A stretch of 44,580 nucleotides of DNA, taken from contig NZ_FNOJ01000020.1 of the NCBI RefSeq assembly GCF_900107035.1, forward strand, positions 1 through 44,580, given 5' to 3'. Source of the DNA: Alicyclobacillus hesperidum. Lineage in GTDB: Bacteria; Bacillota; Bacilli; Alicyclobacillales; Alicyclobacillaceae. The notes beneath the pieces are model-generated. The model was not told where the DNA came from and ran no database searches. It saw nothing but the letters and a program-made list of their open reading frames with translations. The translations under genes and the position numbers were made by a program. Below, one piece after another: positions 10,266 through 37,773 of this stretch (its first letter is position 1; each line of letters opens with the position of its first letter).

Positions 10266-10342
10266 ATGTCATGAACAACAAACTGCACTAATTAAATTAC
10301 AAGGTCCTTCGACGTTTGTCAAGAAATTTTTTTGCGAACGTG

Positions 10343-10373
10343 TTTATAGAAAAATGTAACCCATGTGTATAAA
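10343..10373 (+). promoter_or_regulatory. Putative promoter of the tandem-hairpin leader and alcohol dehydrogenase
   Basis: An extended -10 element TGTGTATAAA (hexamer TATAAA 10368-10373) has a weak -35 TTTATA (10343-10348). It would start transcription near 10380, about 20 bases before the first hairpin repeat. By-eye prediction. Confidence 0.4.
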
Positions 10374-10401
10374 GGCACGAGCAACGGTCCATCATATAAG
10401 C

Positions 10402-10536
10402 ACAGGAGGTTGATGTACCGCAGTAACGATCCAAGTGTTCGTTCCGTGTGGTCGTGTCAACAGCCTGACTACAGGAGGTTGATGTACCGCAGTAACGAAT
10501 CTTAAGTGTTCGTTGATGTGGTGGTGTCAACAGCCT
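10402..10536 (+). repeat. Two tandem 65/66-nt hairpin repeats in the leader of the alcohol dehydrogenase (uncharacterised RNA element candidate)
   Basis: Unit 1 is 10402-10466 and unit 2 is 10471-10536, with a period of 69. The first 28 bases are identical (ACAGGAGGTTGATGTACCGC, then AGTAACGA), and so are the last 12 (GTGTCAACAGCC). Differences lie in the middle. Each unit folds on paper into one long hairpin: AGG/CCT, a 2x2 AG/AG loop, GTTGAT/GTCAAC, TACCGCA/TGTGGTG, a 2x2 loop and AACGA(A)/(T)TCGTT, closed by a 9-base loop. The upstream promoter-like sequence and a strong terminator directly after unit 2 resemble riboswitch or attenuator architecture. An in-frame 30-codon ORF (ATG 10413 to TAA 10505) also crosses both units, so a leader peptide is an alternative. 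It matches no riboswitch class known to me. Confidence 0.7.
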
Positions 10537-10540
10537 TAGC

Positions 10541-10568
10541 AAAAGGACGGCGTTACCGCCGTCCTTTT
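10541..10568 (+). terminator. Rho-independent terminator/attenuator between tandem hairpins and adh
   Basis: A perfect 12-bp stem (AAAAGGACGGCG / CGCCGTCCTTTT) with loop TTAC. It ends in a short T-run, 4 bases after hairpin unit 2 and 58 bases before the dehydrogenase start. Its position inside the leader suggests attenuation. The base block CGTTAC (10551-10556) is complementary to GTAACG, present in both hairpin units (10423-10428, 10492-10497), which would allow an antiterminator pairing. Confidence 0.8.
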
Positions 10569-10626
10569 GTCTTATGTAGCATCATTCTATGGGTAAGCTA
10601 CGTCTGCGACGAATGGAGGGATACGC

Positions 10627-11763
10627 GTGAAAGCGGTGACGTACCAAGGCATGCGAAATGTAGAAGTAAAGGACGTTCCGGAACCTGAAATCGAACATCC
10701 CGAGGATATTATTGTAAAAATCACTTCGACGGCTATTTGTGGTTCTGATCTCCACCTCATACACAACATGATGGCCAATATGCAACCGGATTTCATCATC
10801 GGACACGAACCCATGGGTATTGTGGAGGAAGTGGGGCAACACGTAACCAAGGTAAAAAGGGGAGACCGGGTTGTAATCCCTTTTAATATCGCATGCGGAC
10901 GTTGCTACTATTGTCAGCATGGACTGGAAAGTCAGTGTGACGAATCAAATCAGAATGGCGAAGCAGGGGCCTACTTCGGGTATTCAGGAACGTTTGGTGG
11001 CTATCCTGGCGCACAGGCTGAGTATTTACGCGTGCCATTCGCAAACTTTACACCTTTTGTGGTCCCGGAATCGTGCGATCTCGAGGATGAGCAGTTGCTT
11101 TTCCTTTCCGATATTTTACCGACTGCCTATTGGGGAGTTGATAACGCCGGCGTGAAAAACGGTGACACCGTGGTTGTGCTCGGGTGTGGACCCGTCGGAT
11201 TGTTAGCCCAGAAGTTTGCCTGGATGAAAGGAGCAAACCGCGTGATCGCAGTCGATTATATTGGTTACAGGCTCGAACACGCGAAGCGAACCAATCATGT
11301 TGAGACGCTTGATTTTACACAGGAGCAGAATTTTGGCGAATATATTCGCGAAATCAGCGGCGGTGGGGCGGACGTCGTGATCGACTGTGTCGGCATGGAC
11401 GGCAAGAAGACCATTGTGGAACAGGTTGAGAGTCTCTTGAAACTGCAAGGGGGTACACTGGGCCCCATCCAAGAAGCTGCACAGGCCGTTCGTAAAGGTG
11501 GTACCGTGCAGTTGGTTGGTGTGTATGCCACGCGCTACAACCAGTTTCCGTTAGGGGACTTTTTCGCGCGAAACATTACCTTGAAAATGGGGCAGGCTCC
11601 GGTTATACACTACATGCCTGCGCTATTCGAGATGATCGTCGATGGGCGAGTTGATCCGACGGACATCATTACGCACCGCCTCCCGCTTGCGCAGGCAAAG
11701 CGCGGATACGAAGTGTTTGATACTAAGGAGGATAACTGTATCAAAGTCGTTTTAAAACCCTGA
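10627..11763 (+). CDS. Zinc-dependent alcohol dehydrogenase (formaldehyde dehydrogenase-like MDR protein)
   Basis: The 378-residue medium-chain dehydrogenase has the catalytic zinc ligands Cys38 (AICGSD) and His60-Glu61 (GHEPMG). The structural zinc loop CGRCYYCQHGLESQC has four Cys. The Rossmann motif GCGPVGLLA lies near residues 185-193. The sequence is closest in character to the glutathione-independent formaldehyde dehydrogenase-like group, so oxidation of a small alcohol or aldehyde with NAD(P) is likely, but the substrate is not visible. The GTG start at 10627 has GGAGGG upstream. It stands alone behind a tandem-hairpin leader with a terminator, which suggests conditional expression. 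The tRNA cluster follows 141 bases later. Confidence 0.9.
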   Translation: MKAVTYQGMRNVEVKDVPEPEIEHPEDIIVKITSTAICGSDLHLIHNMMANMQPDFIIGHEPMGIVEEVGQHVTKVKRGDRVVIPFNIACGRCYYCQHGLESQCDESNQNGEAGAYFGYSGTFGGYPGAQAEYLRVPFANFTPFVVPESCDLEDEQLLFLSDILPTAYWGVDNAGVKNGDTVVVLGCGPVGLLAQKFAWMKGANRVIAVDYIGYRLEHAKRTNHVETLDFTQEQNFGEYIREISGGGADVVIDCVGMDGKKTIVEQVESLLKLQGGTLGPIQEAAQAVRKGGTVQLVGVYATRYNQFPLGDFFARNITLKMGQAPVIHYMPALFEMIVDGRVDPTDIITHRLPLAQAKRGYEVFDTKEDNCIKVVLKP

Positions 11764-37514: not shown

Positions 37515-37630
37515 CATCCAGCGTGCCCATGTTGGATCCGATCGGTCCACAGTAGTCTGTATTGTGCGAAAGTGAGCGCATGTGTTATTCTTGTTTCATC
37601 GTTGTATTGAGAGTACAGATAGACACGGAC

Positions 37631-37702
37631 GTCGCATGACTGGCGGATTGTGGGACTGACCACAGGGGAGTGCGATGTATACAGTTGCCGGCCGCCTGGG
37701 CA
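37631..37702 (+). promoter_or_regulatory. ZTP riboswitch (pfl motif) upstream of serA
   Basis: Conserved parts appear in order: P1 GTCGCA (37631-37636) with TGCGAT (37671-37676); the invariant ACTGGCGG (37639-37646); P2 TGTGG/CCACA around GACTGA; GGGGAG (37665-37670); and CCGCCTGGGCA (37692-37702). GGCGG pairs with CCGCC as the class pseudoknot. The aptamer senses ZTP/ZMP, which accumulates when 10-formyl-tetrahydrofolate is short. The aptamer end CGGCCGCCTG (37689-37698) can also pair with CAGCGGCCG (37730-37738), around a hairpin at about 37702-37727. This offers a mutually exclusive fold before the serA ribosome binding site. Confidence 0.92.
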
Positions 37703-37773
37703 CTTTTGACGCGTTCTGCGTAAAAGTCTCAGCGGCCGTTGCTGTACATGCCGGAGTGGTAAGGAGAATTCGA

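Follow-up and report, generated by a model that had tools for sequence, protein, structure and literature searches.

To our knowledge, few forespore small RNAs are known. CsfG (RF00516, also ylbH RNA), a forespore small RNA of Bacillus, is free-standing; it has hairpins and a terminator, and its promoter is of the forespore sigmaF/sigmaG type. Another class, guanidine-II and other tandem riboswitches, places a tandem pair of hairpins ahead of a terminator. The excerpted text of PMC9147052 (2022) gives the mRNA target of CsfG as not identified, and that of PMC12456014 (2025) has CsfG regulating mRNAs. The former excerpt also describes Bvs196 of Bacillus velezensis, a 294-nt independent forespore sRNA under the control of both sigmaF and sigmaG.

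The DNA analyzed here, which we call the window, is a stretch of 44,580 nucleotides from Alicyclobacillus hesperidum (contig NZ_FNOJ01000020.1). It carries two similar hairpins followed by a terminator and a zinc alcohol dehydrogenase gene, an arrangement that a preliminary description read as a candidate cis-regulatory RNA on the plan of a tandem riboswitch. We conclude that the hairpins belong to a new, apparently undescribed RNA family, a putative forespore small RNA that is duplicated in the window species. The element is probably a small RNA gene that stands on its own and is expressed in the forespore, the transcript being predicted from sequence. Transcription from a sigmaF/sigmaG-type promoter (10367-10396) would begin at the base of hairpin 1 and would end at the hairpin at 10540-10569. 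The predicted RNA would be about 100 nt in most copies (one hairpin plus the terminator) and about 165 nt in the window because the hairpin is duplicated there. It would thus resemble CsfG in being free-standing, in its hairpins and terminator and in its promoter type. With the Bacillus RNA Bvs196 it would share the status of an independent forespore sRNA, a likeness drawn by description only; Bvs196 differs in its length of 294 nt.

The two hairpins lie on the forward strand at 10402-10466 (unit 1, 65 nt) and 10471-10536 (unit 2, 66 nt). They are 69 nt apart, have the same opening 28 bases, as the preliminary description had noted, and are 95% identical over 20 nt in their 3' arms. The refined covariance model (R2, below) matched unit 1 at 10401..10468 (63.4 bits, E 8.6e-14) and unit 2 at 10470..10538 (75.7 bits, E 2.9e-17). 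When folded alone, unit 1 gave -25.6 kcal/mol (z -2.9) on the forward strand and -19.4 on the reverse strand, and unit 2 gave -29.9 kcal/mol (z -5.4) and -19.0, respectively. Unit 2 was said to contain an extra A in its 5' arm matched by an extra T in its 3' arm. The A is indeed extra, but the T is not, because both units have GTGTTCGTT on their 3' side. The terminator hairpin placed after unit 2 is also present (10540..10569, forward strand, -22.3 kcal/mol) with a stem of 13 bp rather than the 12 reported. This stem is nearly symmetric, and a simple terminator scan scored it on the reverse strand only; the forward strand was retained because of the promoter, the better forward fold and the T-rich tails found in other copies. 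When positions 10380-10640 were folded as a whole, the minimum free energy structure was a single long hairpin in which unit 1 paired with unit 2, followed by the undisturbed terminator hairpin, and its stability exceeded that of 200 of 200 shuffles. Because the joint fold pairs the units with one another, the two-hairpin form is merely one possible structure of the tandem.

Homologues were sought in 15 Alicyclobacillus genomes, these being the 2.86-Mb draft containing the window (its contig C24) and 14 relatives, among them A. tengchongensis (G103), A. sacchari (G147), A. suci (G200), A. fastidiosus (G301), A. mali (G030), A. acidiphilus (G299), A. sendaiensis (G006) and A. fructus (G078). 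A first covariance model (R1) had 7 seed rows taken from the 18 copies then known, and its refined version (R2) had 20 rows. Before counting, three of the 23 model matches were set aside: two palindromic echoes on the opposite strand and, from A. tengchongensis, a second copy that is only partial. The element, a hairpin of ~65 nt plus a terminator and usually a single unit, was found in all 15 genomes as 20 full copies (one or two per genome) and the one partial copy. In the other 14 genomes all 18 full copies consist of one unit, each followed by a hairpin. Overall, 19 of the 20 full copies are followed by such a hairpin (-13.8 to -29.7 kcal/mol), the exception being window unit 1, after which comes unit 2. 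Hence, among the 15 genomes the intact tandem is confined to that of the window. In A. tengchongensis the partial second copy (locus L002, 1503-2256) is accompanied by another tRNA-Gly and a partial tRNA-Ser, and reflects either duplication in tandem or an artefact of assembly.

The tandem hairpins, the terminator and the adjacent metabolic gene of the window are the features that suggested a cooperative riboswitch controlling the dehydrogenase, a plan shared with guanidine-II and its like. However, the other 14 genomes lack an intact tandem, the RNA is the conserved leader of no gene and it matches no Rfam family. The zinc alcohol dehydrogenase gene (10627..11763, forward strand, Pfam PF08240 and PF00107) is a lineage-specific downstream neighbor that lies outside the RNA gene. 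Relatives of it (E <= 1e-40) were found in 9 of the 15 genomes and were missing from six, and in six of the nine the gene is far from the RNA or on a different contig. The two adjoin only in the window and in A. tengchongensis, with a third case, A. sacchari, being inferred, so the conserved linkage to dehydrogenases that was anticipated is not seen. In A. acidiphilus the RNA sits in the same tRNA locus as in the window, between tRNA-Ser/Gly and a tRNA-Arg/Leu/Ala/Asn/Glu/Val/Ile block, with no dehydrogenase inside. The antiterminator that had been proposed fares no better: CGTTAC of the terminator and GTAACG of the units are complementary in the window, but other copies do not preserve the letters of the loop, and the terminator forms undisturbed when the region is folded. 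Moreover, the promoter directly before the element is of a different kind (an alternative sigma type, in 19 of 19 upstream regions). Given these findings we consider control of the dehydrogenase by a riboswitch extremely improbable; a lineage-specific tandem copy next to a gene can mimic a riboswitch. The fallback offered by the preliminary description, an independent sRNA, is in contrast supported by the promoter, the terminator and the varied contexts of the element.

These contexts number at least six among the 15 genomes. By eye, the neighbors elsewhere include genes resembling nitronate monooxygenase and 6-phosphogluconate dehydrogenase on either side of the RNA, a short-chain dehydrogenase and a sugar transporter, and MarR- and FUSC-like genes; one context is near RNase P RNA. 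The RNA has its own terminator, and the gene downstream of it is not conserved. The several genomic positions, the window tandem and the partial second copy of A. tengchongensis would also suit a mobile or REP-like hairpin repeat having no function of its own. We think this very unlikely, since every one of the 15 genomes has just one or two full copies, each copy has a promoter and a terminator (the tandem units sharing theirs) and one strand of the hairpin is under strong sequence constraint.

This constraint was seen upon alignment of the 19 distinct copies. As the alignment was fitted to the structure, the pairing and covariation figures are flattered: 93.4% of the cells pair, compared with at most 45.6% in slid versions of the alignment, and seven of the 21 pairs have changes on both sides, compared with a mean of 2.3 in shuffles (none of 500 as high). 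Slid alignments had no more than five pairs changed on both sides, a value reached by the +3 slide. Helix 2 (GUUGAU/GUCAAC) is near-constant, and helices 3 and 4 covary. Eight of the homologous RNAs folded with their terminators gave z scores of -5.1 to -7.7. The covariance search and covariation check called for by the preliminary description thus returned homologues throughout the genus and covarying helices, in keeping with its view of an undescribed structured RNA of no known class.

The 5' strand of the hairpin contains a Shine-Dalgarno-like sequence, GGAGGUUGAUGU, which is the same in 18 of the 19 distinct copies, its unpaired bases included; the preceding A differs in three of the 19. 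In unit 1 the near-invariant strand, GGAGGTTGATGT, occupies 10405..10416 of the forward strand (alignment columns 5-16). Within this strand (GG-AG-GUUGAU-GU) all 19 rows agree at columns 5-8 and 11-16, and 18 of them agree at columns 9-10. This full agreement extends to columns 7, 8, 15 and 16, which are unpaired, but the loops opposite them (columns 81-84 and 91-93) vary, and the 3' strand is preserved chiefly where it is paired. This asymmetry suggests selection on the 5' strand itself, with the 3' strand retained as its cover. A short messenger in which AGGAGGUUGAUG would be a ribosome-binding site, followed by an AUG start and a small peptide, was also considered, as an AUG is found at the same position in 20 of 20 copies. 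However, the gap between AGGAGG and AUG is just 3 nt, the reading frames from this AUG are not conserved and stop anywhere from codon 7 to past the terminator, and the sequence variation tracks base pairing. We therefore regard a messenger as quite unlikely.

Assignment of the putative small RNA to the forespore comes from its promoter. The -35 element GTATA (10367..10371) and the -10 element CATCATA (10390..10396), both on the forward strand, match 11 of 11 positions of GHATR-N18-CATNHTA, which we take to be the sigmaG pattern, and 10 of 12 positions of GYATA-N14/15-GGNNANAHTR, which we take to be the sigmaF consensus. Transcription is predicted to start at about 10402-10404, the foot of hairpin 1. 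All 19 upstream regions, which are those of every copy except window unit 2 (a unit having no promoter of its own), have a like element 2-5 nt ahead of the modelled core. Scored against the presumed sigmaF consensus, 13 of these regions gave 12 of 12, three gave 11 and three gave 10. Scores of at least 10, at least 11 and 12 were obtained for 19, 16 and 13 of the 19 regions and for 381, 28 and 3 of 38,000 shuffles, the position limit of 0-8 nt having been set after an initial scan of 0-60 nt. The 19 regions are kin by descent, yet they lie in at least six contexts. In a random-genome null 20 of 40,000 samples scored 12 of 12, a count to which the RNA's own promoters contribute, as they are among the sampled loci. 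As controls, the csfG candidates of 12 genus genomes scored 10-12 on the sigmaF pattern and four SASP genes scored 12, 10, 10 and 9 (a fifth locus, L102, was left out), and 135 of 4,000 random 110-nt stretches reached 10. A promoter scan of 10270-10700 gave no sigma-70-like site. In the portion of PMC5942855 at hand, a spacing of 15 nt is the commoner and 14 nt is given for PsigG. An excerpt of PMC3789822 on C. difficile associates sigmaF with a conserved G upstream of the -10 element and sigmaG with an A downstream.

Given a forespore RNA with a conserved 5' strand, the RNA would act in trans during spore development via GGAGGUUGAUGU. This strand would be the first part out of the polymerase and the 3' strand would cover it afterwards, and the likeliest mode of action would be base pairing with a C/U-rich partner. 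AGGAGGU(U)GAU is the complement of what we take to be the 16S rRNA 3' tail plus one inserted or bulged base; the 16S end was not located in the draft genome and the presumed tail was used for pairing. Our leading guess is that the RNA acts as a decoy, either of ribosomes or of CU-rich RNAs, because the strand complements this tail with one base bulged. Of 12 genomes, 11 gave -14.1 kcal/mol for pairing with the presumed tail and one gave -14.0. As opening of the folded strand costs 12.5-18 kcal/mol and the gain is about -14, binding would need pairing during transcription or help. In the divergent copy of genome G300 the sequence, AGGAG(C)GUGAU, is again this complement but has its insertion at another place, and the computed pairing energy is unchanged at -13.4 kcal/mol. 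This equality is only suggestive, as the energy was also kept by 92 of 702 double substitutions, and by three of nine at the G300 positions.

A fully specified form of the guess is that of a developmental ribosome decoy, in which a forespore-made Shine-Dalgarno mimic would capture the 30S subunit while being transcribed and help to silence or store spore translation. The mimic would consist of the 10-nt complement of the presumed 16S tail with one inserted base, and most copies have no start codon at a working distance. We hold this form to be unlikely. If it were true, the RNA would do for the ribosome what 6S RNA, a decoy of RNA polymerase, does for that enzyme; 6S RNA is an analogy only, a decoy made at growth stop, the supposed partner here being the ribosome.

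A serious rival for this last step alone is that the stem of the same forespore RNA binds a protein rather than an RNA and serves as a decoy, a scaffold or part of a stable spore RNP. The conserved bases lie within a stable stem with internal loops, no conserved single-stranded seed was seen in the folds and alignment, and the cost of opening the stem given above also argues for a protein partner. The 5' strand, however, is kept even where it is unpaired and the 3' strand chiefly where it is paired, a pattern that better fits a single-strand function. A protein partner thus seems possible, if somewhat doubtful.

CsfG itself was considered as the RNA partner. Interactions were computed with one RNA copy per genome for the 12 of 15 genomes having a csfG match. 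No pairing with csfG was found in 10 of the 12, and the two weak matches were equalled by 2 and 8 of 20 shuffles. The 5' end of csfG can carry ACAUCAAC, the complement of GUUGAUGU, but pairing through it was rejected since only three of the 12 csfG loci have it.

The new RNA is not CsfG. The csfG candidate of the window genome is a separate gene of other sequence at another locus (G000:C31:17787-17902, L050), where it lies beside an rsmD-like frame, and RF00516 had no match in the window. This candidate is CU-rich, in contrast to the AG-rich conserved part of the new RNA. The RF00516 candidates of the 12 genomes score 24-42 bits, under the Rfam cut-off of 50, and so an Alicyclobacillus csfG would escape annotation at that threshold. 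At the gathering level the only Rfam families in the window are tRNAs and the guanidine-I and ZTP riboswitches, all away from the hairpins. No Rfam 15 family reached threshold over the hairpins and terminator in the window or its relatives. Only chance-level matches were seen, such as STnc390 (23.4 of 50 bits), BSnc120 (24.1 of 114) and STnc50 (24.3 of 55). Such an RNA is also absent from the titles and abstract openings among the matches listed for Alicyclobacillus small RNA, sporulation and noncoding RNA, a survey that covers the subscription literature thinly. Alicyclobacillus species spoil acid juices, as stated in an excerpt of PMC8430261. A genus-wide and easily recognized candidate forespore RNA with one near-invariant strand would open a second and independent route to RNA-level control in the developing Alicyclobacillus spore.

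Among the genomes searched, convincing members of the family were confined to the genus. The R2 search gave no convincing element in 44 other genomes of the order. None was found in the 384 others of a 398-genome class sample, in which 13 candidates per genome were scored and distant relatives could escape; one match in this search, in genome G222, had an E value of 0.004. A search of 26 other family genomes at higher sensitivity also gave none that was convincing, eight having weak matches at E <= 1. Other weak candidates were inspected and rejected as relatives: the G168 match overlaps a 502-residue reading frame resembling a decarboxylase, L104 and L110 have a similar motif without the hairpin body or terminator, and L067, L105-L109 and L111 lack the motif. 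Long blastn matches (E <= 1) were confined to the genus; the others were short, the best having an E value of 0.001, and came from genomes outside the family. A pattern scan of one genome from each of 84,980 species returned 10 stretches in Alicyclobacillus and three elsewhere (L077, L081 and L085), the latter being discarded since by eye they have no terminator.

The dehydrogenase of the window would be a downstream newcomer. In the four genomes examined (G299, G298, G300 and G301) the gene sits after a coat-protein-like gene, and Coat_F (PF07875) was confirmed upstream of it in the two that were tested, G299 and G300 (the two loci concerned being L115 and L117). In the window lineage the dehydrogenase stands alone behind the RNA without a Coat_F gene. 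The four stretches of coat gene and dehydrogenase showed no strong pattern of a forespore promoter. The gene order of these four genomes is similar to yraG-yraF-adhB of B. subtilis. According to excerpts, adhB (PMC5857382) and YraF (PMC7352945) are forespore-specific. The coat-gene neighborhood together with this specificity suggests that the window may hold a spore dehydrogenase gene that came to lie downstream of a forespore promoter, which it may use via read-through past the strong terminator.

In A. sacchari the contig carrying the RNA ends, by eye, in sequence resembling the start of a group II intron, with no Rfam match there. The contig carrying the dehydrogenase opens with a group II intron end matched by RF00029 (48.6 bits), and tRNA-Arg lies downstream. 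Owing to the intron ends on both contigs and the downstream tRNA-Arg, we infer that these are the same locus split by an intron. The intron (L003 1-100 and L112 1487-1557) apparently lies right behind the RNA terminator, breaking the assembly. A similar-looking sequence, again without an Rfam match, follows the terminator in A. fastidiosus (L047). The riboswitches of the window are a guanidine-I riboswitch at 1444-1553 (91.2 bits) and a ZTP riboswitch at 37626-37708 (66.8 bits). At three loci (L006, L032 and L057) the RNA gene is preceded, at a distance of about 1 kb, by a ZTP riboswitch on the opposite strand.
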